The notes under the pieces: generated by a model | Database searches by the model: none | The model's input: the letters and a program-made list of their open reading frames with translations, nothing else | Told to the model about the DNA's origin: nothing | From: Antarcticibacterium sp. 1MA-6-2 | Lineage (GTDB): Bacteria; Bacteroidota; Bacteroidia; Flavobacteriales; Flavobacteriaceae | Assembly: GCF_021535135.1 (NCBI RefSeq) | Contig: NZ_CP091036.1 | Location: 1,116,001 to 1,180,000, forward strand | Length of the DNA: 64,000 bases | Reading direction: 5' to 3' | Position numbers and translations under genes: made by a program | Shown: in pieces, positions 260 to 57,340 of the stretch | How the letters are laid out: each line of letters opens with the position of its first letter | How positions within the stretch are numbered: the stretch's first letter is position 1

Positions 260-1945
260 TTACCATATATCATCTAACTCATCAAATAAATTTCCTTCCT
301 CAGTTTCAACATCTTCTTTAATAGTATTTACTAAAAATAAAGATTCTCTTGCTCGTGTTAAGGCAACATATTTTAAATTGTTTTCTTGGATCGTTTCCCA
401 AGATTTGTGATTGTCCTTTTTCAAAGGAAGTTTGTCATAATCCAAGATGAAAACTCTGTTATTTTCAAGTCCTTTAGCTTTATGTATAGTAGAAAGTTTA
501 ATTGCATCTTCACTTTCAGTAACAAGTCCTTCTATCCGTTTTACCAGCTCGTTTATTGTCAATACATCCACATGAATTGATGCTTGCCTTTGTAAAAAAT
601 TTATTCTTCTTTCAATATATTCAGTCTCTTCTTTTATAAACTCTTCCTTTGAGGAATCATTCACCATTTTTTTTGCTTTATTCTGAACAAAATAAATATT
701 CCTTTCTTTAACTTTTTCAAAGAAATCATAACCGTTTTTATATACAAACCTTGTATTTAATTCTTGTTTGGAAAATAAAAAGCGGAGTTCATTAAATAGG
801 TCTTTTACATCATCCTGGTGAATATTTACTTTTCTATTATTCTCAAGTAGGACAAAAAGCAATGTTGTTAAGGGTGCTTTTGTTCGGCTGATTATTAAAT
901 CTCCATCTTTAGCGACTCCAATAACTTGATTAAATTTAAGTTTTTCAATAATTCCTTCTTTATCTCTAAAAGGTTTTATATCCGCTCTAAAGTTTTGTGC
1001 ATATTCGATAACATTATTTGGACACCTAAAACAAAATGATAAAGTTAGTTTAGTACAATTCTTTAATAAATTCTCAAACTAGCTAAAAGATTCAATGTCT
1101 GCTCCAGTAAATCCATAAATCGATTGACAAGGATCACCAACTGCAATGACCCGACCAGATTTTTTCACATATTTTAAGGCCACTGCTAATTGAGCTTTCG
1201 ATAGATCTTGACATTCGTCAACAAAGAGTAAATCGTACTTTTTAATGGGGTAAACTTCAAAAACTTTTGGTAAGTAAAGCATATCAGTTAAATCAATTGT
1301 ATTATGGCTTGTAGCAATTTTATTTCCTTCCTCTAAAAGTCTTTCTGTGCCTTTAAATAATATATCGATAACTGAGTCTAGAATTTTTTCGCTTGTTTTG
1401 TTTGGGTCAATTATGTTGAAATGAATAACCATCTCCTTAAATTTAAAGAAGTCATTTTTTTCTAATGTTAACCTAAATTTGTCAACTGAATCAAGGAGTT
1501 TATTCTTAAAATAATTGAAATAGTTATTCAGTTGGCTTTTTTCGAAATTGTTTTCTGGTTCAGGATTAATGTCATATAATTTCAAGTAGCGAAAGAATGC
1601 TTCCTTATTATAACTTTCAATTGATCTAGATATTAAGTCATTATATTTTCTAGTTTTTACATTATATGGAAGTTCTGAATTTGATTTTAAAATTTCAAAT
1701 CCAAGTTGATGAAGGTTTTTAACAACAATATTGTCATTCTTTTTTTGTGATATTCTTTCTTGAATTTCATCTCTAATGCTCTTATTAAAAGCACAAAATA
1801 GAATTGAATTACTTTTTTCAACAAAGCCAATACTCTCAATTATAGTCGTTGTTTTTCCAGAACCAGCAACTGCATCTATAATTCCGTGATTCGAATCAAA
1901 CTTTATGAAATTGTAAATTTTTTCTTGTTCAGGTGTTGGTGTCAT
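260..1945 (-). CDS. UvrD/Rep-family superfamily 1 DNA helicase (apparent in-frame amber at 1079-1081)
   Basis: The upstream part (residues 1-288) has the Walker A AGSGKTTT near residue 27, the Walker B DECQD near 242 and motif III GDPCQSIYGFTGAD. The downstream part carries STIHKAKGLE and YVALTRARESLFLV (motifs V and VI). Both are in the same frame, separated only by TAG after ESFS. Replacing GCTAGT by GCCGGT turns the stop into Arg (ESFSRFENLL) and gives one open gene of about 560 residues. This is one of the RCCGGY-site anomalies, so I call it intact. UvrD-like helicases of this length act in repair and sometimes in defence (for example GajB of Gabija), but no GajA-like partner is adjacent. 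Its substrate is unknown. Confidence 0.8.
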
Positions 1946-2013
1946 TCAATTCCTCTTGGTTATGTTCAAATAATTGGCAAGTTCTTATAAATAGAATTAA
2001 AATAGGTGGTAAG

Positions 2014-2442
2014 TTATTTCTTGCCGAATAGCTTATCTATTTGTTTCTTCGTTAAGGCTTTAGAAAAACCAACATTTCCACTATTACTTCCATGAATAAA
2101 TCTCACTGAAGTCATTCCCATAACGGAATAATAGTCAAGGGATAAGTAGCCGTCATTAAACTGTACGGTAATGTCTTCTTCTGGTGGATTATCCCAATTA
2201 GTTATTATTAAAGTATACAACTGATCGAAACTTTCCTCATTTATTGAGAAATTCTTGAACTCATCGATATGTTCATATTGAGTGTCTCTATATTGTACTG
2301 TATATACCTCATTTAATTTGTATACTTCTATATTTTTTAAAGATCCTATTTTAATGGGATTACTCTCTAATACTTTTAATTGAGCTTGCGACGTCAGGTT
2401 TATTGTCAAAGCCACAAATAAGACTAGCCATAATTTATTCAT
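2014..2442 (-). CDS. Secreted protein of unknown function, 142 aa
   Basis: It begins with a clear Sec signal peptide (MNKLWLVLFVALTINLTSQAQ, cleavage expected after the AQ region), so it should be periplasmic or exported. The mature part of about 120 residues is rich in aromatic and acidic residues and ends in basic LFGKK. I see no known catalytic motif. It lies upstream of the helicase on the same strand with a 68-bp gap, so co-transcription is possible but a functional link is not evident. Base composition is AT-rich like the rest of the accessory zone. Confidence 0.65.
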   Translation of the reverse strand: MNKLWLVLFVALTINLTSQAQLKVLESNPIKIGSLKNIEVYKLNEVYTVQYRDTQYEHIDEFKNFSINEESFDQLYTLIITNWDNPPEEDITVQFNDGYLSLDYYSVMGMTSVRFIHGSNSGNVGFSKALTKKQIDKLFGKK

Positions 2443-3209
2443 TTTTTAGAGGTTTATTTATGTTTATTTTTTTTGAATTCTCAAGTCTAACCTATAAAAT
2501 TTATTAGGCCACAGGTTGAACTAGTGCTAAACGAATTGTCAATTTTTTTACATAAAAGAACAATCATTTTTACATGTCATGTCTAATTTCTTGATCAATT
2601 ACAGAAGCAATCTCATATGCTGTTGAGGCTAATATAATCAATAATTTAACAAAAATTGAGGACTGTATTTCTTATTCTTAGGTGGGAGGGAAATAGCAAG
2701 AGGATAACACGCTGACGCAATGTTATTATTTATATTCCCCTCATTTTCACAGTTGTATGAATTGGGATTAGAAACTTTTAGATGAGATATACTGTAAAAA
2801 CTTTGGGAAGGCCTGTAAATTCAAGAATTATTTACAGTAAATTCACTTAAAACACTATTTTTCTGAGTGCCGATGGTAAATGTTACTCTGTAGAGGGATG
2901 GAAGAAAGTCGTTCCTTTTACCACACATTTTATAGTATTAGTTCGGTAGATATGGGGCAAAAATTTTCTAGTGTTGCAAGAAAAAAGCGAACGAAGCAAA
3001 GCGAAGTGCTGCAAGCCCCAAAATCTACTATAACTAATACTATGTTGCGCGGCTGATTTTCTACAATTGAACCTTAAATAAACTTTAATTTAAAGACTAA
3101 CTATTAGAACCTTTTAATTTTAATTTAGCAAAAAGTTGAACCAGATTTTCACTTTAAATTATCGTTGAAATACAATAGAGGAGAATATTATTTATCTTTC
3201 TTCTAAAAG
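2443..3209. other. Intergenic region, 767 bp, no convincing gene
   Basis: Neither strand has a protein-like open frame. The only structure I see is the imperfect inverted repeat at 2933-3042 described separately. The segment separates the divergent 2014-2442 and 3210-3680 genes and so must hold both of their promoters. Confidence 0.6.
2933..3042. repeat. Imperfect inverted repeat, 26-28 bp arms
   Basis: The left arm (2933-2958) starts TAGTATTAGTT and ends TGGGGC. The right arm (3015-3042) starts GCCCC and ends AACTAATACTA, its reverse complement with a few mismatches. The 56-bp centre holds related words GTTGCAAG and GCTGCAAG and AGCGAA/AGCAAA motifs. The whole could fold into a long cruciform or hairpin. 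It may be a folded recombination site or a miniature element; the family is not identified. Confidence 0.55.
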
Positions 3210-3680
3210 TTGAATACGAAAATTAGAATTTTATTTATTTCAATTCTTGTAATTTTTACTTCCTGTAAAAATGAGGATCATAGTGGAAAAGTTGTTTTGG
3301 ATAGTACTAGTGATTCTACCTCGGTAATAGATAGGTTGAATGGTAGTTGGAAGTTAATTAGAGTAAACGACACCTCATTTACTATTGAAAATGTGTATCC
3401 AATTAATTATGGAGGTCAACCTAAAATAGCCATAGATACAGATGAAAGAAAAATTGGAGGTTTTACAGGATGTAACACTTGGGGAACAACGTTAAATATT
3501 GTTGATAATTCGATTGTTTTTATTGATTCTATAGAAAAGCACGAACAAGGATGTGGGGGAACCTGGGAAGCAGAATACTTGAATTTACTGAAAAACAACA
3601 AATCATTTACTGTACAGGATGATCACTTAAAGTTGACTTCAAGTGATAATAAAACGCTGACATTTCAAAGAGTAAAATAA
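3210..3680 (+). CDS. META-domain (HslJ-like) lipoprotein
   Basis: The 156-residue product has a lipoprotein signal with lipobox FTSC (Cys19) and a following acidic stretch, so it is likely attached to the periplasmic face of a membrane. Residues from about 44 on match the META domain pattern: LNGSWKLI, then KIGGFTGCNTWG, then a Cys/Gly motif and a C-terminal LKLTSSDNKTLTFQRV. META/HslJ proteins are small beta-rich envelope proteins tied to heat or antibiotic stress; their biochemical role is unclear. The start is TTG (3210), chosen because it gives the full signal peptide. It stands alone between two intergenic stretches. Confidence 0.8.
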   Translation: MNTKIRILFISILVIFTSCKNEDHSGKVVLDSTSDSTSVIDRLNGSWKLIRVNDTSFTIENVYPINYGGQPKIAIDTDERKIGGFTGCNTWGTTLNIVDNSIVFIDSIEKHEQGCGGTWEAEYLNLLKNNKSFTVQDDHLKLTSSDNKTLTFQRVK

Positions 3681-3699
3681 AAATTTTTGGATAAGACAA

Positions 3700-3824
3700 G
3701 AATGTCTGATCCCAAAATGGTTTGGGAATTTATCTCTTGGCATTTAGAAGGACTGGAAATTACTACATAAAAGAGTTTGAAAATAATTTAAAGCCTAAAG
3801 GATTACTCATAAATACGAAATAGC
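3700..3824 (+). pseudogene. Possible frameshifted gene tail
   Basis: Between the META lipoprotein and the methyltransferase, one frame reads WEFISWHLEGLEI, and a frame one base away continues YYIKEFENNLKPKGLLINTK then stop at about 3822. The two join at about 3760 as a plausible C-terminus of a lost gene. There is no recognisable family and no upstream body, so it is a small remnant at best. Confidence 0.3.
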
Positions 3825-3826
3825 AT

Positions 3827-4534
3827 ATGAAAAAATCAACAGTAGAAGAAATTAGAGAGCGGTTTGACAATGATATAGAACGGTTCTCCAACCTTGGTAC
3901 AGGTCAACTTGCTACAATTGACGCAAAGGTTTCGCTAGAACTTATTACAGAAGCCTCTAAACGTATTACACCTAAAGCTGAGAATTTATTAGATATTGGT
4001 TGTGGTGCAGGAAATTATTCTCTTATGATGCTTTCAAAATTACCAAATTTGAATTGCACCTTAGTTGATTTAAGTCAGCCTATGCTGGAAAGAGCATTAG
4101 AAAGAGTATTACAACAGGCAAAAAGAAAAGTAGAAATTGTGCAGGGGGACATTAGAGTTATAGAGCTGCCTGAAGAACATTTTGACATCATCTTAGTAAG
4201 TGCAGTCTTGCACCATTTGAGAGATGACAGAGACTGGGAAACTACCTTTACTAAACTTTTTAAGTTATTAAAACTAGGTGGTTGTTTAATGATTTCTGAT
4301 CTGATTACACAAGACACCGAAGTAATAAATGACTATACTTGGGAAAAGTATGGCGACTATTTAGAACGCTTGGGTGGGAAAGAATACCGCGAAAAGGTCC
4401 TAGATTATATTGCAAAAGAAGATTCCCCTAGGTCAATGAATTATCAATTGGATCTTATGAAGAAAGTAGGTTTTAGGAAGGTTGAGATTCTTCACAAGAA
4501 TATGTGTTTCGGAGCTTTTGGTGGAATAAAATAG
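3827..4534 (+). CDS. Class I SAM-dependent methyltransferase (small-molecule type)
   Basis: The 235-residue protein has the Rossmann-fold SAM motif LLDIGCGAGNYS near residue 58, the acidic end of beta-2 (TLVDLSQPML) and the post-motif DIILVSAVLHHL typical of Methyltransf_11/25-type enzymes. The substrate cannot be told from sequence; metabolites, lipids or natural products are usual. It lacks the (N/D)PPY or PC motifs of DNA base methylases, so I do not link it to the RCCGGY signal seen elsewhere. No operon partner is evident. It lies just left of the integrase remnant. Confidence 0.8.
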   Translation: MKKSTVEEIRERFDNDIERFSNLGTGQLATIDAKVSLELITEASKRITPKAENLLDIGCGAGNYSLMMLSKLPNLNCTLVDLSQPMLERALERVLQQAKRKVEIVQGDIRVIELPEEHFDIILVSAVLHHLRDDRDWETTFTKLFKLLKLGGCLMISDLITQDTEVINDYTWEKYGDYLERLGGKEYREKVLDYIAKEDSPRSMNYQLDLMKKVGFRKVEILHKNMCFGAFGGIK

Positions 4535-4579
4535 TTAATCGTTAATCCTTATTGATCTTCTGTTTGTAACTAACGGAAG

Positions 4580-4690
4580 CACTTCCTTAGTCTGTTCCTG
4601 ATATTCTTGATGATATTATTGCCGATTTGAACAGGGAATTTCAAAGCTTATTGAGCTGAGCATTTCCCCCGTTTGTAAAAAATAATAAGG
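4580..4690 (-). pseudogene. Degraded tyrosine-recombinase fragment
   Basis: The stretch containing CTGTTCCTGATATTCTTGAT aligns with 10269-10360 inside the element-1 recombinase and the same part of the intact copy near 17080-17160, including the following GGGAATTTC and TTTCCCCCGTTTGTAAAA words. In translation it corresponds to the IIKKYQEQ region of the catalytic domain but is interrupted. I read it as the scar of an older, related integration event, with only a piece of the int gene left. Confidence 0.55.
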
Positions 4691-4894
4691 GGACAGAGGT
4701 AATTACCCCTTTCCAGTCCCACAAAAATTCCCTTAACCTTTGGGTGGTAAGGAGTTTTTAAATAGCCCTTTTATAAGATTTGACGCAAATTTCTTCCTGT
4801 ATATGATGCTTTACAAAGCATTTGACGCAAATTTACATCTAAACTATGTTTGACAGTGAATTAAATACCTGATAATCAATAGTGTGGGGGAATG

Positions 4895-4930
4895 TAACGG
4901 GGCTCTGCCCGTTACCCTCTTGCTATTCCC
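4895..4930. repeat. Candidate left end of element 1
   Basis: A 7-bp stem hairpin (TAACGGG, loop GCTCTG, CCCGTTA) runs into the 20-bp word GTTACCCTCTTGCTATTCCC (4911-4930). The same 20 bp occurs at 14019-14038, immediately after the att duplication that begins element 2. This suggests that 4911 marks the equivalent end of element 1. The tRNA-derived core itself is not preserved here beyond CGGGG, so the boundary is tentative. Confidence 0.45.
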
Positions 4931-5108
4931 CATTTATTTTAAACTTATTTCTTTTATACCATTTTATAGGTCTCTTTTAGATCTTTACTACCCACCTTAA
5001 TAGAAAAATTTATATAAAATATAAGTATCATTTTTTTTAAAAAGAAAAAATGCATAGGATTGCAGTTCTTCAACGTAAAGTTGTCATAAATGCCCAAATG
5101 AAATAGAA

Positions 5109-6786
5109 ATGGATAATATATTAGAACTAAAAACCATAAGTGAACTTCAAGAATTTAATTTCTTTATACCATCTTACCAAAGAGGTTATAGATGGAGTAC
5201 TAAAGAAGTTGTCGAGTTATTAAATGATATTTCCAATTTTACACCTAGATTAATAGAGGAACATAGTGATGAAAAAACATGGTATTGTCTTCAACCCATT
5301 GTTGTAAAGAAAATTGAGAATGGCAAATATGAGGTTATAGATGGGCAACAAAGACTTACTACCATATATTTGATTCTCTATTATTTAAATCAAGATTTTG
5401 TTGAAAAAAAAGAGATAAGTTATTTCAATTAGATTACCAAACGAGGAGCGGTTCAAAAGTTTTTCTGAGCCAATTAGAAGACGATATTGATAACAAAACG
5501 AATATTGACTTTTATTATATCTCAAATGCTTTTAAAGCAATTACTGATTGGTTTGAAAGCAAAGGGAGTAATTTTGACACAGGTGATTATCGTTCTAAAT
5601 TTAAATTCAATTCTAAAGTCATTTGGTATTTAAGTAATGAGACTGATTCAATTTCAATTTTCACAAGAATAAATATTGGAAAAATTCCTTTAACAAATTC
5701 TGAATTAATTAAAGCACTTTTCCTTAATAGTTCAAATTTTCAAAACCAGGAAAATAAGCTTAGGTTGCGGCAATTAGAAATCGCAACTGAATGGGACAAC
5801 ATTGAGAATTCATTACAAGATGACAAATTTTGGTTCTTTTTAAATCAAAACAATGTTGCAACAAACAGAATAGAATTCATTTTTAACTTAATGAATGAAG
5901 AGCCAGACCCTAATGACAACTATGATACCTTTAGATATTTTAGTAAGAAATTTTCAAAAGGTAATAATGAGGAGTTAACAAAAAATTGGAATGAAGTAAA
6001 AAGGTATTATCAACGTTTTAGTGAATGGTTTAGTGAAAGGGAACTTTATCATAAAATCGGTTTTCTAATTAGCACTGAATCTACAAGCATTAAGGAACTT
6101 TACATCATGTCTGATGATATAAGTAAATCTGAGTTTAAAGAATATTTAGATAAACTTATCAAAAAGGATCTAAAAAATGTTGACATTAATGAGCTTCAAT
6201 ATTCGGATGGAAATGACGTAAGAAAAATCCTTTTGCTATACAATATTCTTACTATGCTGGCAAGTTCAAAAGACAACTCTTACTTTCCTTTTGATTTATA
6301 TAAAAATGAAAAATGGGATATCGAACATATTACTTCTGTCAAGGATAAATTGCCTGAAAAAAATAAAAAACAGTGGATAGATGATGCTATTGTATTTGTT
6401 GGTAATGAAAGTAAAATAGAAAAGAGTCTTAGAAAAAAATAAACAATTGGAAAGAAGATGATGATGAAGGATTTAAAAGTTTATTCGAAGAAGTTGTTTC
6501 ATATTTTAATTCTGAGTTAAGAGAGGATGATGACATTAATGATTTATCAAACCTCACATTGCTCGATGCTGGAACTAACAGAAGCTACAAAAACGCAGTA
6601 TTTCCCTTTAAGAGAAAAACCATTATCAACCGCGATAAGCAAGGTGTTTTCATTCCTATCTGCACAAAGAATGTTTTCTTAAAATATTTCAGCGAATATC
6701 CTCCTAAAATTTCTTTTTGGTCCCAGGAAGACCGTGAGAATTACGAGAATGATTTAAATGACGTATTAAATTCTTACTTATCATAA
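5109..6786 (+). CDS. DUF262-DUF1524 protein (GmrSD-like), with two apparent 1-nt frameshifts
   Basis: Residues 1-107 contain the DUF262 signature: PSYQRGYRW near 21-29 and DGQQRLTT at 78-85. The frame then moves (ttt run at 5423-5425) and continues through TRINIGKIPLTNSELIKALF and QLEIATEWDNIE. A second shift lies in an A-run (6435-6441), after which the C-terminus has the DUF1524 pattern (EKWDIEHIT before the shift; NRSYKNAVFPFKR after). DUF262 is a ParB/Srx-like NTP-binding fold and DUF1524 an HNH-like nuclease domain; together they form GmrSD-type modification-dependent restriction enzymes. One missing base at each A/T run restores about 560 residues. I cannot tell sequencing error from genuine decay. 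Five bp precede the next gene. Confidence 0.75.
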
Positions 6787-6791
6787 ATTCT

Positions 6792-8768
6792 ATGCAAAAC
6801 GAAAAATACAAAGGTAAAATCTTCAGTTTTTATGAACTATTAGCATCCAATAAAATTGAAATCCCCATTATCCAGCGTGATTACGCACAAGGAAGGAAGG
6901 ATAAAAAGAAAATAAGACAAAATTTTTTAGAAGCTTTGTATGATAGCATTGACAAAGAAGAAAAAATAATGCTTGATTTCGTATACGGGAGTAATACAGA
7001 CGATGCATTTCAACCATTAGATGGCCAGCAAAGATTAACAACATTATTTCTTTTACATTGGTACGCTGCACAAAAAGATAAAAAATTAGTCGATGAAAAA
7101 AATATTTTAATAAAATTTACATATGAAACAAGAATTTCCTCCCGAGATTTTTGTAATTCTCTGGTAGAAAACAGCCTTATTTTAACACAAGATTCACCTC
7201 CTAGTGAAACTATAATTGATTCACCTTGGTTTTATTTATCCTGGAAGAATGACCCTACCATCGATGCAATGCTTAGGACAATAGATGACATTCATCTTAA
7301 ATTTTATAACACCCCTAATCTTTGGTATAAATTAACGTCTAAAGAATTTGACTTAATCCGATTTTATCACGTAGAATTAGAAAATATCGGTTTAACTGAT
7401 GATCTCTATATCAAAATGAATGCAAGGGGGAAATTGCTTTCAACATTTGAAAACTTTAAAGCTGGATTTGAGAAAAGAATTCGAGATGAAAAATGGGAGT
7501 CTTTTTCGGACTTCACAAAATCATTTGCATTTAAAATAGATACTACTTGGACGGATCTATTTTGGAAACATTTTAGAAAAGATAATGCAGTTGATACTTC
7601 GTTCGTTAACTTTATTTCTACCCTATTAATGATTAGACAGTCCGTTGAAAGAAATAAAAAAACAGAAGAAAGATTGAGAATCATCTCAAAATTGCAAGAG
7701 GATTCAAATAACATCTCTCCCAAACTTTTTGAAGTTGATGATTTCAACTATCTAGTTGAATGCCTTAATCTTATTGACGATCATTTTGTTGAAATTGAAG
7801 CGATTAAGTTCAATTTCCCCCTTTTTAGGCATGAGCCAAAAGAAAGTTTAATTAAAACCATCACACTTGAATCAGACGCTTCATATACTCAGAAGGTACT
7901 TCTTTTTGCTCAATTAGAATATTTCAGAAAAGTGAAAATTATAGATACTCAAAAATACTTAGAGTGGATGAGAGTAGTTAGAAATATAATTTCTAGAGGG
8001 GACATAGAAAAAAGTGGTAAGAGACCTGACATCGTAAGAAGTCCAGCAACATTTGATGGTGTTATATACCTTATATCTGAGTTATCAACCGGGTGTAAGG
8101 ATATTTATGGCCATTTATCAAATATTAGTAATCTAAGTTCAACATTTGCTAAAGAACAAGTTGAAGAGGAGAAATTTAAAGCTAAAATAATATTCAAAAA
8201 TCCTGACTCTAAAAAAATACTTTTTGAGTTAGAAGATACAGATTTATTAAGGGGAAGAATTGATTTTATTTTTTACTGTTTGGATATTGACAAACAACAA
8301 GACAGTATTGATACTGAATTTTTAGAAGAAATTAAAAACGTATTCATAGACAACTTGAGTACCGACACATGCTTAACAAATGATTTAAGAAGAGCTTTAC
8401 TGACCATATCAGTTAACGGTAGGTATGAATTTTATCACTATTGGTGGTCTTTTTGGAATGTAGTAGATAGTGATAAGAGAAGATTGATAGACAAATATCG
8501 TGAGATCGAATATCTGATCCACTCTGAGTTTAGCGAATATTTCAAAATTCTAATTCATAGACTTAGAAGTAACAGTTTGAAGGAGATAGTCAATAACTTT
8601 AATCCCGACAACAGTTTTCCTAATTGGAAACTAAAATTAATTAAGGAAGAAAATTTATTAAACGAGAATGGTTCAAATTACATAGCTATCTCTCAAGACA
8701 ATAGTTATTGCTATTTATTAAAAAGTAAAAGACCGCGAGATAAAAAAGGGTGTATCAAAATTGAGTAA
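6792..8768 (+). CDS. DUF262-family protein, 658 aa
   Basis: The N-terminus carries a second DUF262 domain: IPIIQRDYAQGR at 24-35 and PLDGQQRLTTLFLLHWY from about 75. A conserved helix-rich block follows (YIKMNARGKLLSTFENFK). The remaining 400 residues are helical with a Trp/Tyr-rich stretch (EFYHYWWSFWN) and no recognisable HNH, so it may use its partner's nuclease domain or act as a sensor. It follows the first DUF262 gene by 5 bp on the same strand, implying one transcript. It is intact, unlike its neighbour. Paired DUF262 genes are known in defence islands; this exact arrangement is not one I can name. Confidence 0.8.
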   Translation: MQNEKYKGKIFSFYELLASNKIEIPIIQRDYAQGRKDKKKIRQNFLEALYDSIDKEEKIMLDFVYGSNTDDAFQPLDGQQRLTTLFLLHWYAAQKDKKLVDEKNILIKFTYETRISSRDFCNSLVENSLILTQDSPPSETIIDSPWFYLSWKNDPTIDAMLRTIDDIHLKFYNTPNLWYKLTSKEFDLIRFYHVELENIGLTDDLYIKMNARGKLLSTFENFKAGFEKRIRDEKWESFSDFTKSFAFKIDTTWTDLFWKHFRKDNAVDTSFVNFISTLLMIRQSVERNKKTEERLRIISKLQEDSNNISPKLFEVDDFNYLVECLNLIDDHFVEIEAIKFNFPLFRHEPKESLIKTITLESDASYTQKVLLFAQLEYFRKVKIIDTQKYLEWMRVVRNIISRGDIEKSGKRPDIVRSPATFDGVIYLISELSTGCKDIYGHLSNISNLSSTFAKEQVEEEKFKAKIIFKNPDSKKILFELEDTDLLRGRIDFIFYCLDIDKQQDSIDTEFLEEIKNVFIDNLSTDTCLTNDLRRALLTISVNGRYEFYHYWWSFWNVVDSDKRRLIDKYREIEYLIHSEFSEYFKILIHRLRSNSLKEIVNNFNPDNSFPNWKLKLIKEENLLNENGSNYIAISQDNSYCYLLKSKRPRDKKGCIKIE

Positions 8769-8787
8769 GAACTACCCTCAGCGGTCT
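8730..8787 (+). terminator. Possible terminator-like inverted repeat at the end of the second DUF262 gene
   Basis: AGACCGC (8730-8736) pairs with GCGGTCT (8781-8787), and inner GGGT pairs with ACCC. The repeat overlaps the stop codon of the second DUF262 gene. A T-rich tract follows at 8792. It may separate expression of the RES gene from the DUF262 pair; it could also be coincidence. Confidence 0.3.
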
Positions 8788-8844
8788 GTGTATTTTTCAT
8801 ACCTACAGAGTAAACTTTATACATATATCGTTTAGCACCTTATT

Positions 8845-9792
8845 ATGAGTGAAGATTTCAGGAATTTCCCGACTTATAACCAAGCAATTAAAGGAATTGA
8901 AAAATTAAAAAATATTGAATGGCCAATTTTTGAAAATTTTAAACAAACGGAGGATTATGTGAAGGCAATAGAAGATATTATTTTTCAAGAATTCGAAATA
9001 ATTCCTTCAGCTTTACAATTTTTTAAACCTGATAAATTTAATTTATCAATATTCCGTGCAAGAGAAACAAGTACATTTAAGAATATTGACTTGATTTCGG
9101 AGCATAGTTATCCCCCGCTTAATATTACTAGCTTTGGAAGATGTAATTTTCCTGAAAATCCAGTCTTCTATGGTTCTGATCATCCAATAACTTGTCTTCT
9201 GGAAATTATTAGAGAATCTGATTATAAAGAAAAAGAATTCTGTCTAACGAAATGGGAGATTTTAAAATCTGATACTCCAGTAGCGATTCAACCTTTTTTT
9301 CATTCAGGTTTACCAAAAGAAAATGGATTTAGTGCTATTAAAGAAATGGAAACACTAAAACTTGATGAAACATTTGAAAACAAATTAGATTTGGACAAAA
9401 AAGCTGGATTACTAAAATTGTTAGACTTTTTCCGAACCACTTTTATTACTGATGCTAAGCATAAACTCTCCGCAGCAATTGCCTATAATTTCTTGTACGC
9501 AAAACATAATTTAAGAACTGATATTTTAATGTATCCCAGTATATATACCCAATTAACAGGAATGAACATGGCGATAAGTCCAAATTTTGTGGATAATCAA
9601 ATGCAATTGAAAAGATTATATAAAATAAAAATTACAGATATTAATAAACAGGATAAAAAGTACAAACTTAGTATTGGAGAATATGCTTACGTCGAGAAGA
9701 ATGTAATCATGTGGAATACCTTTAAAAAAAATGACAAACAGTTTGAAAAATTCTTTTCATTAGATTTGAAGAGTTACTTAAATCTATCATAA
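8845..9792 (+). CDS. RES-domain protein (predicted NAD+-degrading effector), 315 aa
   Basis: The RES pattern is visible: IFRARET (Arg71/Arg73, Glu74), then SFGRCNFPENPVFYGSD (98-112) and CLLEII with Glu120, matching the Arg...Glu...GRxN...vxYxs...xxxE spacing of RES domains. RES toxins of the Xre-RES type degrade NAD+. This one is longer than stand-alone RES toxins (about 150-230 aa), with a helical N-terminal extension and a C-terminal tail, and no Xre antitoxin lies next to it. It follows the DUF262 pair by 76 bp on the same strand. I infer an effector role for the cluster; the catalytic activity is predicted from family only. Confidence 0.7.
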   Translation: MSEDFRNFPTYNQAIKGIEKLKNIEWPIFENFKQTEDYVKAIEDIIFQEFEIIPSALQFFKPDKFNLSIFRARETSTFKNIDLISEHSYPPLNITSFGRCNFPENPVFYGSDHPITCLLEIIRESDYKEKEFCLTKWEILKSDTPVAIQPFFHSGLPKENGFSAIKEMETLKLDETFENKLDLDKKAGLLKLLDFFRTTFITDAKHKLSAAIAYNFLYAKHNLRTDILMYPSIYTQLTGMNMAISPNFVDNQMQLKRLYKIKITDINKQDKKYKLSIGEYAYVEKNVIMWNTFKKNDKQFEKFFSLDLKSYLNLS

Positions 9793-9945
9793 GAAGAAAT
9801 TAGGAATTATAAGATATACAACGGAGCACTAGATTTAAGAATACGTTCCTTTAAACTAATTTTTCGTAATATTGTTTAAGAGAGATTTCAAATCTTTGGC
9901 ATATTCTATTAGTATGGAAGGAGACGAATATAAATTTGTCCATGA

Positions 9946-10561
9946 TTATTTTGAACATCCAGCTTTAACTTTATTCTGCTTTTTATTCAACATGATTTGA
10001 TCCAATTTACTAATATCCAAGCTCAATTTTTTCTCCAGCACCCTGGCATAAATCTGGGTAGTGGAGAGTTTCTTATGTCCTAGTAGTTTTGAGACAGTTT
10101 CAATAGGAACTCCATTTGAAAGTGTAATTACAGTAGCAAAAGTGTGTCTGGCAGAATGAAATGTGATTTTCTTTCTTATTCCTATACTATCTATTATATC
10201 TTTTAAATATTTATTGATCTTCTGGTTCGAAATAACCGGAAAAACTTTCTTGGCCTCTTTAAAAACCTGTTCCTGATATTTTTTGATGATATCCTTAGCA
10301 CATTCGAGCAGAGGGATTTTCACAGATTGCTGCGTTTTTTCCCTCTTTGTGTAAATCCAGTCCTTCCCATCTATCCCTTTCACAATTTGATCAGTAGTAA
10401 GTTCCTTTAAGTCGGTATAAGATAAGCCTGAGTAGCAAGAGAATAAGAACATATCTTTTACCCGTTCAAGGGATTCACTGGTAAATTTCGTTTCTTCTAA
10501 AATATGGAGCTCACGCTCTGTTAGAAATTGCCGATCATTTTTTTCAAATTTAAAGCTATAG
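9946..10561 (-). pseudogene. Tyrosine recombinase of element 1, C-terminal half (cut by IS21)
   Basis: It encodes the catalytic domain: SCYSGLSYTDL, HSARHTFATV, LGHKKLSTTQIYARV with the nucleophilic Tyr. It matches residues from about SFKFEKNDRQFLTE onward of the intact copy at 16769-18037. The reading frame continues leftward into the IS for about 25 codons by chance. It is separated from its N-terminal half by the 2.6-kb insertion, so this recombinase should be inactive and element 1 probably cannot excise itself, unless the paralogue acts in trans. Confidence 0.9.
10556..10561. repeat. Target-site duplication of the IS21-family element (left copy)
   Basis: CTATAG occurs at both borders of the insertion (10556-10561 and 13149-13154) and only once in the intact int copy (AAAGCTATAGCTCC near 17369-17376). 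A 4-6 bp duplication is usual for IS21. The exact length is ambiguous because the word is palindromic. Confidence 0.7.
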
Positions 10562-10750
10562 TGGATATAACGGATCAAATTGTGCCAGTGATTTCGGTCG
10601 GTTAGTGCCAGACATTTCGGTTTAAATTGTGCCACTTTTTACTGGTTGGTAGGACTTATACCTAGTTCGTTTTGTGCCAGTGATTTCGGTTCTATTTGTG
10701 CCACTTTAAAAGATCAGGTAAATAATACCTTGTCGCTTAAAATAAGCGAT

Positions 10751-12304
10751 ATGGCCAACACACTTGATCCGATGGACTTAAAACAAATTCTTTCTTTACA
10801 CCTCGATGGGCTTAGTAACCGTAAAATTGGTACAACCCTTGGAATCTCTCGCAATACGGTAAATAATTATATGCGTTTGTTCAAGGCTAGTGACTATTCT
10901 TATAAAGAATTGTTAGCCCTCGACAATGCAGCTTTAGAAGCACTTTTTCCTTCCCACACCACGATTGACAATGCGCGCTACGAGGAACTTATGCTCTATT
11001 TTGAGGGGGTCAATAAAGCCCGGAATCATCCCGGATTTACCTTTTTATACCATTACCAGGAGTATGTACAACAGGCCAAAGATCCTTATGGGTATACCCA
11101 GTTTATGGAACATTACTGGCGCAAATATGCCAGGGAGAAGGGGTCGATGAAACTTGAACATGACCCTGGGAAAGAATTATTTATTGATTTTGCGGGTAAG
11201 AAACTTCATATTATTGATAAGCAAACCGGAGAGGTGATCCCGGTAGAAGTATTTGTAGCCATCCTTCCCAATAGCCAATACACCTATGTGGAAGCCTGCA
11301 GGAGTCAGAAACGGGAAGACCTGATTAACTGCTGCAAAAATGCGCTGCAGTTTTATAGAGGAGTGCCCAAGGCCATCGTATCGGACAATCTAAAATCTGC
11401 TGTAACCCGAGCCAGTAAGTACGAGGCCGATATCAACCGGAGCTTTAAAGACTTTGCCCGGCATTATAACTGTGTGATCAATCCTACGCGGGGATATGCT
11501 CCTCAGGACAAGGCGCTGGTAGAGAATGCGGTAAACCTTGCCTACCAGCGCATCTATTACCCACTTCGGGAGATGCGCTTCTTCTCTTTGGAAGACCTGA
11601 ACCGAGAGATAAGACGGCTGCTGGAACGATACAATAACCTGCTGTTCCGGCGTAAGGAAGCTAGTCGCCTGGAACTGTTCCAATCGGTGGAACGGGAATA
11701 TCTAAAACCCTTGCCAGAGATGGCTTATGAACTCAAAGGCTATCGAAGGGCTAAAGTCCAGAAGATGGGCTATGTGTACTTCTCCCCGGATAAAAGCTAC
11801 TACAGCGTACCCTATCGTTACATCGGAAAAGAAACCACTATCCATTATACTGGTTCTTCAGTCGAAGTCTATTATTACCATCAACGGATTGGCTTGCACC
11901 AGCGTAACCCCTCCAAAGGAAGCTATAATACCAACAAAGAGCATCTTAGCAGTACCCATAAATTCTATAGCGACTGGAGCCCGGAATTTTTTAAGAAGAA
12001 AGCGGCCGCGCATGGCAAGCACGTACTGGGTTGTGTAGAGAAAATAATGGCCGGAGTGGACTACCCGGAGATAGGCTACAAACGAGCTATGGGGGTGATC
12101 CAGCTCCATAAATCCTATGGCACGCAGCGTCTGGACAATGCCTGTAAAAGAGCACTTCAGGCAGATGCCGCTACCTACCAGCGCATCAAGAATATCCTGA
12201 AGAATAACCTGGATAAAACCTCCCTGTTCTACCAGGACCTGGAAGAAGATAAATCCCATATCCCCAAACACGATAACATCCGGGGTGCCTCGGCATATCA
12301 ATAA
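10751..12304 (+). CDS. istA: IS21-family transposase IstA
   Basis: I chose the ATG at 10751 (MANTLDPMDLKQILSLH); the frame is open further upstream to 10646, but that part lies in the terminal repeats. The 517-residue protein has an N-terminal helix-turn-helix (LSNRKIGTTLGISRNTVNNYM) and an rve/DDE integrase core with LFIDFAG (first Asp), IVSDNLKSAV (second Asp) and GYAPQDKALVENAV (Glu), followed by the Mu-type C-terminal domain. It cuts and joins the element ends and works with the AAA+ protein IstB, whose gene starts 22 bp downstream. Confidence 0.93.
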   Translation: MANTLDPMDLKQILSLHLDGLSNRKIGTTLGISRNTVNNYMRLFKASDYSYKELLALDNAALEALFPSHTTIDNARYEELMLYFEGVNKARNHPGFTFLYHYQEYVQQAKDPYGYTQFMEHYWRKYAREKGSMKLEHDPGKELFIDFAGKKLHIIDKQTGEVIPVEVFVAILPNSQYTYVEACRSQKREDLINCCKNALQFYRGVPKAIVSDNLKSAVTRASKYEADINRSFKDFARHYNCVINPTRGYAPQDKALVENAVNLAYQRIYYPLREMRFFSLEDLNREIRRLLERYNNLLFRRKEASRLELFQSVEREYLKPLPEMAYELKGYRRAKVQKMGYVYFSPDKSYYSVPYRYIGKETTIHYTGSSVEVYYYHQRIGLHQRNPSKGSYNTNKEHLSSTHKFYSDWSPEFFKKKAAAHGKHVLGCVEKIMAGVDYPEIGYKRAMGVIQLHKSYGTQRLDNACKRALQADAATYQRIKNILKNNLDKTSLFYQDLEEDKSHIPKHDNIRGASAYQ

Positions 12305-12326
12305 CGTATCATTAATCCAATGAAAT

Positions 12327-13064: not shown

Positions 13065-13148
13065 GAGTAATTTTTTATATAATTGTAGTATCTTTTAAAG
13101 TGGCACTGTTTGACCGAAACAGGTGGCACCATCACTCCGAAATAGCCA

Positions 13149-13819: not shown

Positions 13820-14002
13820 TAGTTTTTAAAGACGAAAGTCAAATTAACCGAAAGGTTCTTCTAAGATAGTGAATTAGTGAAAAGAAAGTATTCACCGAAT
13901 CATTCACTAAACAGGTTGATATTATATGATATCATCTGATATCAATAAAAATAAAAAACACTGAAAATCAAATGATTAACAGTGTTTTATCTCCACTTAT
14001 TA

Positions 14003-14019
14003 GGTGGTTCGTCGGGGTG
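14003..14019. repeat. Att duplication: copy of tRNA-Pro 3' end (left end of element 2)
   Basis: GGTGGTTCGTCGGGGTG is identical to 18221-18237, which covers the 3' acceptor strand and downstream flank of the tRNA-Pro gene. Such direct repeats bracket elements inserted by tyrosine recombinases in tRNA genes. Here it lies between element 1 and element 2, as expected if element 2 inserted at the tRNA after element 1. Confidence 0.85.
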
Positions 14020-14021
14020 TT

Positions 14022-14056: not shown

Positions 14057-14122
14057 CCTATTAAATTACAGAAATGTTATTTTAAAAATTCATCTTTATT
14101 GACAGAGTTAATAAAGTAAAAC

Positions 14123-45110: not shown

Positions 45111-45883
45111 TTATTTCATTGCCTGGGCACGCCCAAGATAAACAGGAACCTGATCTGCCTCAGGGCTTTCAGAATAATCATCTTTAATCCTATTCAGGTA
45201 TTCTGTGGCCTGTTCGCCCTTTCCTAGTTGTATCGCAGTTATTGCCGCCTTAAGAAGGGCCTTTGGAGTTGTAAATTCATTTGATCTCATAGAAGCTGCC
45301 TTGTCATAGTAATTTAAAGCTTCTGCAGGCTGCTCTAATTGAAGAAAGGCATCACCAATTCCGGCTGTTGCCAAAGGTGCTAAAATTTCATCATCGCTTT
45401 TAAAATCTTCAAGATATTCTATTGCTTCCTGGTATCTGTTGGTACGCAAATATGCGAAACCTAAGCATAGTAGTTAGCAAGGTTTGCAGCATTGGTACTG
45501 CTATAATCTTCAATAATATCCAGAAATCCATATTTACCCTCACCTCCAGTAAGAGCCATATTAAATAAAGAATCACTTTGAGCTCCTGTACTTGCAATTG
45601 CAGTGTCAAAATATTCCTGAGCCTGGAACATTTCATTTGCAGCTTCTCTTTCATTAGGCTCCTGTACAAAGCGGTCATAAGCAAGGTATCCAAGGATAAC
45701 TACCGCAGCTAATCCAATAATAACATAAATGTATTTTTGATTATGAGCAACCCACTCCTCTGTCTTATTTGCGCCTTCATCAAGGGTATTAAAAACTTCT
45801 GCGGTTGTGGAGTGATCTTCCACGTGTTGAGCTTGCTCCTCTTTATTAGCTGGTTTATGTCCTTTTTTCTTGTAAGTCGCCAT
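45111..45883 (-). CDS. Membrane-anchored TPR protein (one RCCGGY-type break)
   Basis: A short cytoplasmic N-terminus, a membrane helix (YIYVIIGLAAVVILGYLAYD, about 50-69) and then TPR-like helical pairs place the bulk in the periplasm. The frame breaks at 45459-45466 (plus strand ACCTAAGC for ACCGGC), restoring LANYYAGFAYLRTNRYQEAIEYL. The corrected protein of about 256 residues resembles YfgM-like tetratricopeptide proteins located before ribH in Flavobacteria. The exact role is unknown. Confidence 0.85.
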
Positions 45884-48633: not shown

Positions 48634-49653
48634 ATGATAGAACAAAGTATATTAGAGATTACCTCTGCCCTTTCACAATCTAATAAAATAGTCATTGTAC
48701 CTCATAAAGGACCCGATGGTGACGCAATGGGTTCCTCTCTTGGGCTATATCATTTCCTTAAAGACAAGGGCCATACCACTCACGTCGTTGTGCCTAATGA
48801 CTTTCCGCATTTCCTTAAGTGGCTGCCCGGGCAGGAAGGAGTCCTCAATTATGAAAATGAGAAAGAAGTTTGTAATGAACTTATTTCTAATGCCGATATT
48901 ATTTTTACCCTGGACTTCAATATGCTGGAGCGTGCAGGCGACCTGGTAGAACCTCTAAAAGCAGCGCAGGCTACTTTTATAATGATAGATCACCATCCGG
49001 AACCATCAGATTATGCAGATCATACTTATAGTGATGCACAAATGAGTTCCACCTGCCAAATGGTGTATAAATTTATTCAGAAGTTAAGAGCTTTAAAACA
49101 TATAACTCCAGAAATTGCAACCTGCCTTTACACTGGAATTATGACAGATACTCTAGCTCTTTTAGATATCGTTCCACATCCAGTGACACTCACAGGGTGA
49201 TAGCAGATCTTATAGACAAAGGCGCAGATAATACTGCAATTCACCAAAATGTTTTTGACACTTTAACACATAGTAAATTACATTTACTTGGAGTGGCCCT
49301 ACAAAATCTAAGGGTTAATAAAGAATATCGCACTGCCTACATCACATTGTCCCAGGAAGAACTTGACTAAGCATAATTTTAGAAAAGGAGATACTGAAGG
49401 TTTTGTAAACTATGGTTTATCCATGGAAGGAATTATATTTGCAGCCATTTTTATTGAACATAAAACCGATGGAATAGTGAAGATGAGCTTGAGATCCAAG
49501 GGGAATTTTTCTGTCAATCAGTTTGCCAGGAACCACTTTAACGGAGGCGGGCATTTAAATGCCGCGGGTGGAAAAAGCGATCTTTCTCTTGAAGCCACTG
49601 TTGAGAAATTTAATGAAATTCTCCCGCTATACCGTGAAGAATTAAGTCTATGA
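48634..49653 (+). CDS. nrnA: DHH/DHHA1 oligoribonuclease / pAp phosphatase NrnA (two RCCGGY-type breaks)
   Basis: It degrades short oligoribonucleotides and pAp. HKGPDGDAMGSSLGLYHFL, the DHH motif IMIDHHPEP and the DHHA1 motif FNGGGHLNAAGG are present. Breaks occur at 49150-49157 (ACTCTAGC for ACCGGC, restoring GIMTDTGSFRYRST) and 49366-49372 (ACTAAGC for ACCGGC, restoring QEELDRHNFRKGD). Corrected length is about 338 residues, normal for the family. The stop overlaps the GldI start by 4 bp. Confidence 0.92.
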
Positions 49654-50212
49654 AAAAAATAAGCATACTAATCCTGTTAATTTCTTTATTTGCAGGCTGT
49701 AAATCTCCCGAAGCGAGAAGGCTTAGGTGACGCAATCATCGGGATCATTTATAAATGAATCTATAGAACGAAACCGCGAATTAGTAGCACGCGAGGAAGC
49801 AGAAATCCTGGAACTAATAGAAAAAGATTCTTCCAACCTTTATACAGCATCCAATAACGGCTTCTGGTACTTTTATAATAAGAAATCTACCGATTCCACT
49901 AATACAGAAACACCAGAGTTTGGTGATGTTGTACTTTTTGATTACAATATTACCGATATTGATGGAAATGTAATTTATGCTGAAGGAGAAATCCCTACAC
50001 GACGCTATGCCATGGATAAAGAAGAACTCTTTGGTGGTTTACGGGAAGGATTGAAATTAATGAAAGAAGGTGAAATAATTACATTCATTTTCCCCTCACA
50101 CAAAGCATTTGGCTACTATGGCGATAAAAATAAAATAGGAACCAACATTCCTATAATTACGAGAGTTCATCTCCATTCAATAACTGACGAAAGCAATATA
50201 AATCCTAATTAA
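49650..50212 (+). CDS. gldI: Gliding-motility FKBP-type peptidyl-prolyl isomerase lipoprotein, GldI-like (one RCCGGY-type break)
   Basis: The start ATG at 49650 gives a lipoprotein signal ending LFAGCKSPEARR. The frame breaks at 49721-49728 (GCTTAGGT for GCCGGT), restoring ARRPVTQSSGSF. The C-terminal FKBP domain has PEFGDVVLFDYNITD, FGGLREGLKLMKEGE and FPSHKAFGYYGD. GldI is a Flavobacteria lipoprotein needed for gliding, probably folding envelope proteins. It is coupled to nrnA and precedes another PPIase gene by 4 bp. Corrected length about 186. Confidence 0.85.
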
Positions 50213-53212: not shown

Positions 53213-54287
53213 GTGAAGAAATACGCAGGCCTCATTCTCGCAATTTTGTTACCACTGCAATACTTTGCAGTTAAAGTTATCTCGAATTATCCTCAATTCG
53301 TGGAGACCTGGTATAGCACTTAGCCTCTACCCTTTCATTTCCCAATTTATGAGGTACCCTCTGGGAGTACTGCCTTTTTCACTTGGAGATCTATTATATG
53401 CCTTCTTTATTTTTTCGATTTTTCGGTGGTTGTACCTCAGGTTCAGGAATAAATTTAAAAATCCGAGGAAATGGATCCTTGAGATCTTTGCTTTTGCGTC
53501 TATAATCTATGGTTGTTTTCACCTTTTCTGGGGATTAAATTACTACTAGCTTCCATTGCACAAGACTCTCAGAATAAAAAATGACTATAATACAGAGGAG
53601 TTGGTTGAACTAACCAGGACTCTTATAAAAAGATCAAACGAAGTGCAAATGAAATTGATGGGTGATGACAGTTTAAAAGTCCCCTATAATTTTAAAAAGA
53701 GCCAAATTTTAAAGAATACCATTGACGGTTTTGATTTTCTTCAGGAGGAATACCCAAAACTTACTTATAACGGAAAAAGCCTGAAGAGGTCTATTTACAG
53801 CATTCCTCTTACCTATATGGGTTTCAACGGATACTTAAACCCGCTCACCAATGAGGCGCAGGTTAATACCAATATCATCAAATACAAACTTCCAACTACA
53901 GCCAGTCATGAAATTGGCCATCAGCTAGGATTTGCAAAGGAAAATGAAGCCAATTTTATTGCCTGTCTTGCAACAATTAATCATCCTGATCCTTACTTTC
54001 GTTACTCAGGACTCACCTTTGCACTGCGCTATTGTCTAAATGAGTTATACGCACGGGACAAAGTCCAGGCCGATGCTTTGTTGAAGACCATTAACTTCGG
54101 AATAATGGAGAATTACAGGGAAGTGCGGGAATTCTGGGCCCTGCACACAAATCCTTTTGAACCTATTTTCCAGTACAGTTATAACGGATTTTTAAAAGCA
54201 AATAATCAAAAAGAAGGTATGAAAAGTTACAGTTATGTTGTTGCTCTCCTTGTAAATTACTTTGATGATGTAGAAAATGCTTTCTAA
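53213..54287 (+). CDS. DUF3810-family membrane metalloprotease-like protein (two RCCGGY-type breaks)
   Basis: From GTG at 53213 (VKKYAGLILAILLPLQYFAV) the frame breaks at 53318-53324 (ACTTAGC for ACCGGC, restoring WYSTGLYPFISQFM) and has an in-frame TAG at 53545-53550 (ACTAGC for ACCGGC, restoring LNYYRLPLHKTL). N-terminal membrane helices precede a soluble domain with ASHEIGHQLGFAKENEANF, an HExxH-E zincin motif. The corrected protein of about 358 residues matches DUF3810, conserved in Bacteroidetes, function unknown. It is divergent from pepD. Confidence 0.85.
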
Positions 54288-54360
54288 AATTTTCGTTTAG
54301 ATTCTTTAAAATTCCTTAAATTTTCGCCTTTTTTCAGCTAAACAAATAACCCATAAGTTC

Positions 54361-57340
54361 ATGAGATTAAAATTATTCATGTTCACCCTTTTTCTTGTCG
54401 GGGTGAATTTGCACGCCCAGGATTACTTTCCGAAGAATGATGGCGTCAAAACAAAGAATACAAACTACACCGTATTTGAAAATGCCAAAATTCACGTCGA
54501 TCCTTCTACCACGATAGACAATGCTATGTTTGCAGTTAAAGAAGGAAAGATAACTGCCATAGGAAAATCTATTGATGTTCCACCAAACAGCGTGAGGATA
54601 GATCTAAAGGGTAAAGAGGTTTATGCATCATTTATAGATCTTTATAGTGAATTCGGGATCCAAAAACTTCAACGTGTAAGCAATAATTCAAACCAGCCCC
54701 AGTATGAAGCTGCAAGAGAAGGTTATTATTGGAATGACCATCTTAGGCCCGAAACTGATGCGGTACAACATTTCAGCTTCAATAAAGAAGAAGCTGAAAA
54801 ATATCACAAAAGCGGATTTGGAGTGGTCAACACCCATGTACCCGATGGAATTATAAGAGGGACAGGTGTCCTTGTCGCTTTGAATCCTGAAGGTACAGAG
54901 GGAGACAGAGTACTTTCTGATCGATCTGCTCAATATCTTTCATTTGATAAAAGCGTCCTGTCAAGGCAGTCCTACCCTACTTCTATTATGGGAGCAATGG
55001 CTCTAATTCGTCAAAGCTATATGGATGCTGAATGGTATTCTAAAGGAAATTCCCAGAATAAAGATCTCGCATTGGAGGCATTGAACCGAAACAAAAGCCT
55101 TGTGCAAATCTTTAAGACCGACAATTTACTGGATGCATTACGTGCCGATAAAATTGCCAAAGAATTCAACCTGAATTACGTGATCCTTGGTAGCGGAAAT
55201 GAATATGAAAGAATAAATGAGGTAAAAAATTCAAATGCCACCTTCATTATTCCTGTAAATTTCCCCGATGCTTATGATGTGGAAGATCCTTTTATGGTTG
55301 ATTTCATTAGTCTTCAGGAAATGAAGCGATGGAACCAGGCACCTGCCAATCTAAAAATTCTTGCACAAAATAATGTTCCTTTTGTGATAACCTATAATGG
55401 TTCAAAAGATGAGAAGACTTTTCGTGCCAATCTTTTAAAGGCAGTGGAAAATGGACTTGACAAGAGTAAAGCACTTGCCGCTCTTACTACGGTACCAGCA
55501 AAAACACTTGGAAAAGAAAATACCCTTGGTACCTTAAAACAAGGTGCATGGGCAAATTTCATAATTACCTCTGGTGACCTTTTTGATGAAGAGACTGTTA
55601 TTTACGAGAATTGGGTACAGGGACAACTGGCAATTCTGGAGAACATGAACACTGTAGATCTTGCTGGTACATACAATTTGAAAGTGAATAACAACAATTA
55701 TGAACTTAAGATTACGGGGAAACCTACTTCCCCTAAAGCCGAAGTAAAACAAGGAGATACTAAAATTCAGTCAAAACTTAATTATGCTGATGGCTGGATG
55801 AATTTGATGCTAACCTCCACATCTGACGATTCTACAAAGACTGAATTTACACGATTGGTTGCACAAGTTCGTGAGAGTTCAAATACCATAAAAGGTCGCG
55901 CTATTTTGCACAACGGAAGCGAAACTTCATTTACTGCGGAAAAAACACAGACCAAAGAAGAAGCCAAAAAAGAAGATGAGGAAGAAGAGAAAAAAGCAAT
56001 GGAAATAGTTGCAGTTTCTTACCCGAACATGGCTTACGGTTTTGCTAGTTTACCACAACCTGAAAATATTCTGTTTAAGAACGCTACCGTTTGGACTAAT
56101 ACAAACGAAGGAATTCTCGAAGGAACAGATGTTAAGGTGAGAGACGGAAAGATATCGAAGGTTGGAAAGAATCTTAACGCAGGAAATGCGAAAGTTATTG
56201 ACGCCACCGGGAAACACCTAACTTCCGGAATTATTGATGAGCACTCCCACATTGCCGCTTCAGCAATAAATGAATCTGGTCACAACTCCAGTGCAGAGGT
56301 GACTATGGAAGATGTAGTAGACCCTACTGACATTAATATTTACAGGAATCTTGCAGGAGGAGTTACAACCGTACAGTTACTGCACGGTTCTGCTAACCCT
56401 ATTGGTGGAAGGTCTGCTATTCTTAAACTTAAATGGGGTGGTTCTGCTGATGATCTAATTTTTAAAGAAGCGCCAAAATATATCAAGTTTGCTCTTGGAG
56501 AAAATGTGAAACAATCAAATTGGGGCAGTAACAGCTAGGTTCCCGCAAACCCGGATGGGAGTAGAACAGGTGTTTACAGATTATTTTACCCGCGCAAGGA
56601 TCTACGAACAGGAAAAGAAAAACAACAAGAACTACAGAAAGGATCTGGAAATGGAAACTCTTGTAGAGGTCCTAAACGGAGAACGTTATGTAACCAGTCA
56701 CTCTTATGTACAGAGTGAAATTAATATGTTAATGAAAGTTGCGGAAGCCTTTGATTTCAGGATCAACACCTTTACCCATATTCTTGAAGGCTATAAAGTG
56801 GCCGATAAAATGAAAGAACACGGGGTGGGTGCATCTACTTTTTCTGACTGGTGGGCCTATAAATATGAAGTAAATGACGCAATTCCTCATAATGCTGCAA
56901 TTCTTCACAATGCAGGAGTTACTGTAGCAATTAATAGTGATGACAGCGAGATGAGCCGCAGACTTAATCAGGAAGCAGCGAAGTCTATGAAATATGGTGA
57001 TATTTCTGAAGAAGAAGCCTGGAAATTTGTCACTCTTAATCCGGCAAAATTGTTACACATAGACCAATACGTGGGAAGTATAGAACCTGGAAAGCAGGCA
57101 GACCTTGTATTGTGGAGCGATCATCCCCTTTCCATCTATTCCAGAGCCGAAAAAACTTTGGTAGAAGGCGCAGTTTATTTTGATGTTGAAAAAGATGAAC
57201 AGCTTAGGGAAGAGATTGCAAAGCAAAAAAATAAGTTGATCCACCAAATGCTGGAAGCAAAAAATGGAGGAGCTACTACAAAACCTGCTACAAAAAAAGA
57301 AGCACAACACATCCACTGTAACACTTTGGAAATTCACTAA
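54361..57340 (+). CDS. Large secreted amidohydrolase-family protein (one RCCGGY-type break)
   Basis: A signal peptide (MRLKLFMFTLFLVGVNLHAQ) precedes two amidohydrolase-like halves. The first half (residues about 30-440) lacks the HxH metal motif. The second half has SGIIDEHSHIAAS with the metal-binding HxH and NSDDSEMSRRLNQEA with the catalytic Asp. The frame breaks at 56534-56540 (GCTAGGT for GCCGGT), restoring SNSRFPQTRMGVEQV. Corrected length about 993 residues. An acidic/Lys linker (KEEAKKEDEEEEKKAM) joins the halves. The substrate is unknown; imidazolonepropionase-type hydrolases are the nearest relatives. A second family member starts 2 bp downstream. Confidence 0.88.

Follow-up and report, generated by a model that had tools for sequence, protein, structure and literature searches.

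Interrupted Genes at RCCGGY-Like Words in the Antarcticibacterium sp. 1MA-6-2 Assembly as Probable Base-Calling Errors at a Putatively Methylated Motif

Interrupted Genes in the Window

The window analysed here is a stretch of 64,000 nucleotides from the genome of Antarcticibacterium sp. 1MA-6-2 (Flavobacteriaceae), and positions below refer to it unless stated otherwise. In this window, an earlier note had listed 19 short words that interrupt conserved genes where the hexamer RCCGGY (R, purine; Y, pyrimidine) was expected. All 19 words were found in the sequence at the positions given there. The evidence described below indicates that the interruptions are very probably errors of the consensus sequence at modified RCCGGY sites and that they lie in the assembly file.

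Three relatives of the same genus (G011, G003 and G001) were employed for comparison; they were pooled, so that one place of this genome may count more than once. Their open reading frames (ORFs) were used in two sets, a cleaned one, in which each ORF starts at its first methionine and overlaps are removed (549 ORFs, of which 219 gave a hit), and an uncleaned one, running from stop to stop and including antisense frames. Site-level alignment with the relatives covers 16 of the 19 sites, those at 1078, 20965 and 28562 being without an aligned relative. With the cleaned ORFs a frame break was found at most 15 bases away from 11 of the 19 words, and with the uncleaned ORFs from 12. Isolated frame-changing gaps in nucleotide alignments were observed at four more sites (49150, 49366, 49721 and 53318), the last of which the cleaned test does not list as a break. 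Two extra places in the uncleaned count, near 42373 and 42391, derived from antisense query ORFs and were gone in the cleaned test. A literal RCCGGY is present in at least one of the three relatives at seven of the 16 aligned sites (27434, 28306, 43539, 49150, 49721, 53318 and 53545).

The methylmalonyl-CoA mutase gene is hit three times. It is split by GCTTAGT (27434-27440) and broken again by GCTTAGC (27997-28003) and by GCTTAAGC (28306-28313), the relative ORF for the third break being the same as for the second. ACTTAGC stands further on at 28562-28568. The short-chain dehydrogenase gene has a frame break at ACCTAGT (33586-33592), and the alignment reveals another at ATAGC (33299-33303), which by its position is probably in the upstream part of the same gene; the latter word does not fit the R..Y pattern used in the word search described below. 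Further frame breaks relative to the relatives occur at GCTTAGC (36647-36653) and, together with an in-frame stop, at ACCTAAGC (45459-45466).

At other sites the word coincides with the edge of an ORF. A signal-peptidase-like ORF ends at ACCTAAGT (38522-38529) and the lumazine synthase ORF at ACTTAGT (44695-44701); ACTAAGT (43539-43545) lies at the edge of a mutL-like ORF, and GCTAGGT (56534-56540) ends an amidohydrolase-like ORF. Near the left end of the window, ACTAGC (1078-1083) contributes a minus-strand TAG that ends an ORF (1079-1945) matching the UvrD-helicase N-terminal domain. At ACCTAGGT (20965-20972) two overlapping minus-strand ORFs meet, one of which weakly matches an ABC transporter. 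The frame-changing gaps mentioned above fall at ACTCTAGC (49150-49157), at ACTAAGC (49366-49372), at GCTTAGGT (49721-49728), where an FKBP-type isomerase ORF has its 5′ edge, and at ACTTAGC (53318-53324), upstream of a DUF3810 ORF. Just ahead of the same DUF3810 ORF, ACTAGC (53545-53550) provides an in-frame TAG stop.

Scarcity of RCCGGY

The tetramer CCGG occurs 156 times in the window and only one of these occurrences is RCCGGY (ACCGGT, 37597-37602), exactly the single intact site that had been claimed. The same was found on a larger scale. In an 860-kb sample, consisting of 40 stretches spread over the genome plus the window with overlap removed, the 2,257 CCGG tetramers fall into 18 RCCGGY, 735 RCCGGR, 704 YCCGGY and 800 YCCGGR, and the four RCCGGY hexamers have the four lowest z-scores among all 6-mers by a Markov estimate. 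The G+C content is 38.0% (900 kb of the genome). Over the whole genome (4,383,004 bases in one contig, 97.25% complete), ACCGGC/GCCGGT was counted 19 times, against 1,038 occurrences of the reversed control word.

In a table covering a sample of 299 family genomes, this one has the lowest ratio of ACCGGC to control. Among the rows of that table that were listed, the next lowest were G034 (32 vs 309), G261 (7 vs 48) and G237 (22 vs 102). With its roughly tenfold depletion, the family member G034 is a candidate either for natural avoidance of the site or for the same artefact as considered here.

The few sites that survive have a biased surrounding. A or T occupies 29 of the 32 positions flanking 16 distinct intact RCCGGY sites, compared with 50 of 90 at 45 miscalled sites (p ~0.0002), which might be a context effect of the kind expected from base calling.

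Comparison with Relatives

DNA aligned with the three relatives provided 225 places at which a relative has RCCGGY, and at none of them is the motif exact in this genome. For CCGG in the control contexts, 90 of 722 places are exact (RCCGGR 25/259, YCCGGY 44/249, YCCGGR 21/214; Fisher p ~1e-11). Insertions or deletions were observed at 32 of the 225 RCCGGY places and at 38 of the 722 control places.

The words that replace the motif are of a particular construction. Between R and Y, a left half (CC, CT, CTT, CCT and so on) is combined with a right half (GG, AG, AAG, AGG and so on) in many pairings. A search pattern, R-C[CT]0-3-TA-[AG]0-3-G-Y at the break, was applied to frame breaks, with places 200-400 bases away as shifted control. 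With the cleaned ORFs, 160,615 distinct coding bases were covered and 53 frame breaks found, of which 39 lie at R..Y words and five at the Y..R-flanked form, while R..Y words were present in nine of 314 shifted control places. The relatives compared with each other gave no frame break in 60,746 bases and one in 34,045. The uncleaned ORFs gave 66 frame breaks, 45 at words (shifted control 12/392), and the words at these 45, with complements pooled, are CTTAG (23), CCTAAG (9), CCTAG (6), CCTAGG (4) and CTTAAG (3). A rougher tally took all isolated gaps that change the frame in the nucleotide alignments, whether in coding DNA or outside it, and 38 of these 117 fall at words.

Tandem Array and Essential Genes

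An internal replicate is provided by a 14-copy array of a 220-base unit, 97% alike, adjoining the ribosomal RNA operon (L038, 5726-8787). If the truncated end of the last copy is set aside, variation in length within the array is confined to two spots, both of which are R..Y words. The first reads GCTAAGT in seven copies and otherwise GCTTAGGT, GTAAGGT, GCTTAAGT, GCTAGGT, GTTGAGT, GCTAGAGT or GTTAGGT. The second reads ACCGGC in four copies and ACCCGC, ACTGGC, ACCAGC, ACAGC or ACTCGGC in nine. In the remaining copy (u10) the second spot is ACCGGA, which is not RCCGGY, and its CCGG is read cleanly. A TCCGGT within the unit is identical in all 14 copies, and other columns of the alignment have a few ordinary substitutions.

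The same words interrupt genes that a cell can hardly spare. A family search for rpoB revealed one gene in two frames, which meet near genome position 1,560,706-1,560,716, and R..Y words interrupt rpoC, rplA (L1) and rplK (L11) as well. Because a cell in which these genes were truly broken would hardly live, the breaks most likely lie in the file. Accumulation of pseudogenes would leave essential single-copy genes intact, whereas here the single-copy rpoB is split over two frames. These observations support the earlier view that the interrupted genes are not pseudogenes.

The Methyltransferase Locus

A profile search of the genome with PF00145 found one C5-methyltransferase, of 394 amino acids, encoded on the minus strand at genome position 3,944,960-3,946,141 without the stop codon. 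N4-methylation was considered and set aside, as no match to PF01555 was found anywhere in the genome. The methyltransferase gene overlaps an ORF of 359 amino acids, a putative restriction endonuclease (REase; PADLOC REase_II PDLC03534, 6.9e-132). Genes for Vsr and for a tyrosine recombinase are located upstream.

Over 372 amino acids the methyltransferase shares 53% identity with one on a Moraxella osloensis plasmid, and the identity is 67% in residues 250-315, which we take to contain the target recognition domain. The Moraxella osloensis enzyme adjoins a gene annotated as Cfr10I/Bse634I family, whose product matches Cfr10I (1cfr) at 7.1e-96. A candidate methyltransferase of RCCGGY specificity, for which the earlier note had proposed to search, is thus encoded in the genome as judged by homology, and its kinship to a Cfr10I-linked enzyme supports the proposal that an RCCGGY-specific modification exists in this strain. 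Such a methyltransferase with an adjacent REase gene would be the make-up of an RCCGGY restriction-modification system. The REase itself matches neither PF07832 at E ≤ 10 nor any Pfam family below E 0.1, and BLAST gave no significant hit between it and the Moraxella osloensis Cfr10I homologue.

Relatives of the REase were found in 78 loci, from bacteria and at least one archaeon, and the methyltransferase was detected in 72 of them. The pair of the methyltransferase and the 359-amino-acid type of REase is widespread (L096-L173), occurring in Bacteroidota, Bacillota, cyanobacteria, a Methanocorpusculum and others. At E ≤ 1e-60 the methyltransferase was found in two of 397 sampled genomes of the family, this one and G191, and in two of 16 genomes of the genus, this one and G013. 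The protein of the second genus member is 39% identical, and the distribution within the genus suggests recent acquisition of the methyltransferase. The ACCGGC count of G013 is normal (355 vs 262).

Proposed Origin of the False Words

We consider, with a probability of roughly 93%, that the broken genes are consensus base-calling errors, probably of nanopore reads, at RCCGGY sites carrying 5-methylcytosine (m5C). The errors are concentrated at one short motif in the flank counts, at the orthologous places, in the array and at the frame breaks. From these observations we infer the methylation, the modified base, the sequencing platform and a strand-wise mechanism, which would run as follows. 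The C5-methyltransferase of a type II restriction-modification system would mark RCCGGY on both strands, with the outer cytosine as the most likely target. Nanopore reads of native DNA, called with a model ignorant of the mark, would probably have been the source of the assembly. The reads of each strand would miscall the half-site that contains their own modified cytosine, turning CC into CT, CTT or CCT, and on the opposite strand GG would become AG, AAG or AGG. The consensus would then join a wrong left half to a wrong right half, giving R-(CT/CTT/CCT)(AG/AAG/AGG)-Y, usually longer by one or two bases, so that coding frames would be broken in the file and not in the cell.

As regards the modified base, the earlier note had favoured the inner cytosine, which is probably wrong. 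The enzyme MspJI requires m5C-N-N-R. MspJI mapping located m5C in RCCGGY for Anabaena variabilis, Anabaena flos-aquae and Bacillus stearothermophilus CPW16 (PMC8112702), and the same mark has been reported for the Vsr-containing NmeDI system of Neisseria meningitidis (PMC7973814). An rCCGGy m5C methyltransferase, DmtD, is described from cyanobacteria (PMC4390886). Since only the outer cytosine of RCCGGY fits the MspJI requirement, the outer cytosine is probably the modified base.

Several results weigh against this explanation or limit its reach. Nine of the 16 aligned sites in the window have no well-aligned literal RCCGGY in any relative and show other words there; at 38522 one relative has the literal motif, within a poorly aligned stretch. 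The claim that the expected sequence needs RCCGGY is therefore only partly borne out at the level of single sites, but genome-wide the effect goes well past what chance would give. Not every RCCGGY place is a miscall, because many of the remaining orthologous ones look like ordinary divergence. With G011 as baseline, the net excess of words in 900 kb is ~600, set against ~790 missing sites; in only ~350 of these words do both halves differ from the motif, and RCCAGY by itself supplies ~144, perhaps as noise of the baseline. Against a null based on flank classes within the genome the excess is far smaller, with little for several words, and CTAG was seen 127 times where 194 were expected. The mass balance is thus rough, and part of the RCCGGY deficit could be natural avoidance. 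Moreover, 14 of the 53 frame breaks are without the word. Of 32 in-frame stops with the cleaned ORFs, seven are at the word (0 and 1 in the controls), and the uncleaned count, 12 of 163 with controls similar in density, gives no support.

A mark bulkier than plain m5C, for example a further-modified cytosine, would explain why miscalling is near-total. Only 18 of ~647 expected sites are left in the 860 kb, in our judgement a more complete failure than m5C might give. Nevertheless, the methyltransferase is an ordinary PF00145 protein, and published nanopore errors at Dcm (m5C) and other motifs are also systematic (PMC6591954, PMC10687267), so we regard such a mark as unlikely.

Natural avoidance, in which selection by a restriction enzyme removed RCCGGY and the frame breaks have a separate origin, is still less probable. 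It can draw on the depletion of G034, on the published statement that most cyanobacteria with an rCCGGy methyltransferase under-represent the site (PMC4390886), and, for a partial role, on replacement words that do not clearly cover all the missing sites. Avoidance predicts substitutions that keep the frame; the indels at orthologous places and the 39 of 53 frame breaks at words speak otherwise. Of the 78 REase loci, 37 were submitted to a depletion count and 36 were searchable, and none of these 36 other genomes with the enzyme pair is comparably depleted, the lowest ratio being 177 vs 1,340. Nor is such depletion seen in G191 (616 vs 859), whose methyltransferase is 62% and whose REase is 77% identical. 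The suggested recent acquisition of the methyltransferase also argues against avoidance, although a partial contribution of it may remain. True mutation, by deamination of methylcytosine or by genome decay, is the least credible reading, as the C-to-T resemblance of a CCGG to CTAG core on both strands is outweighed by insertions of one and two bases that deamination does not yield, by the Vsr repair gene beside the methyltransferase, by the interruption of the one rpoB copy, of rpoC and of ribosomal-protein genes, which is hardly compatible with life, and by array copies that vary in length at the words and nowhere else internally.

Other Features of the Window

The left part of the window (1-18304) is likely a genomic island beside a tRNA-Pro gene (18229-18304). 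It contains a tyrosine integrase gene (16769-18037), IS21-type transposition genes (10646-13064) and a gene whose product has a GmrSD restriction domain (6792-8768). A 109-base tandem repeat of 2.4 copies lies at 23423-23680. Two arrays of 7-base units, TAGGTTG x8.3 (33989-34046) and AACCTAT x10.4 (34289-34360), are roughly complementary and occupy a 0.4-kb stretch between ORFs.

Significance and Comparison with Known Systems

By our extrapolation the file probably holds some 2,000-4,000 false words genome-wide, interrupting genes as basic as rpoB. Such assemblies raise the apparent number of pseudogenes, lead phylogeny and pathway calls astray, and can pass for genome decay. A nanopore-only Flavobacteriaceae type strain was described as having 173 pseudogenes, mostly frameshifts, which were taken as a sign of adaptation to a sponge host (PMC10942906). 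A cheap screen for other assemblies would compare short palindromes with their flank classes and add a search for frame breaks. The joint pattern of depletion and frame breaks would let a methylation motif be read from a finished assembly without the raw signal.

The finding is a new case of a known artefact. Errors of nanopore consensus at methylation motifs are documented for Dcm CCWGG (PMC6591954) and for Listeria GCAGC/GCTGG (PMC10687267), and they resemble the present ones in being systematic and concentrated at one short methyltransferase motif in an otherwise good assembly. Among the papers found on RCCGGY together with nanopore sequencing, none concerns this artefact, as judged from titles and the opening lines of abstracts. 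Unlike the Listeria case, in which mismatches are described (PMC10687267), the motif here is RCCGGY and many of the errors are short frame-breaking insertions, known in this instance from the assembly alone.

The enzymes resemble two known groups of systems. With the Cfr10I/Bse634I systems (R|CCGGY) the likeness lies in the methyltransferase, 53% identical to the Moraxella osloensis one beside a Cfr10I homologue, while the 359-amino-acid REase differs in having neither PF07832 nor a significant BLAST match. With NmeDI of Neisseria meningitidis (PMC7973814, PMC4081073) the likeness is in the gene make-up, an m5C methyltransferase, an REase and Vsr standing together with a putative RCCGGY target. 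The present locus differs from NmeDI in its host, a member of the Flavobacteriaceae, and in the tyrosine recombinase gene beside it.

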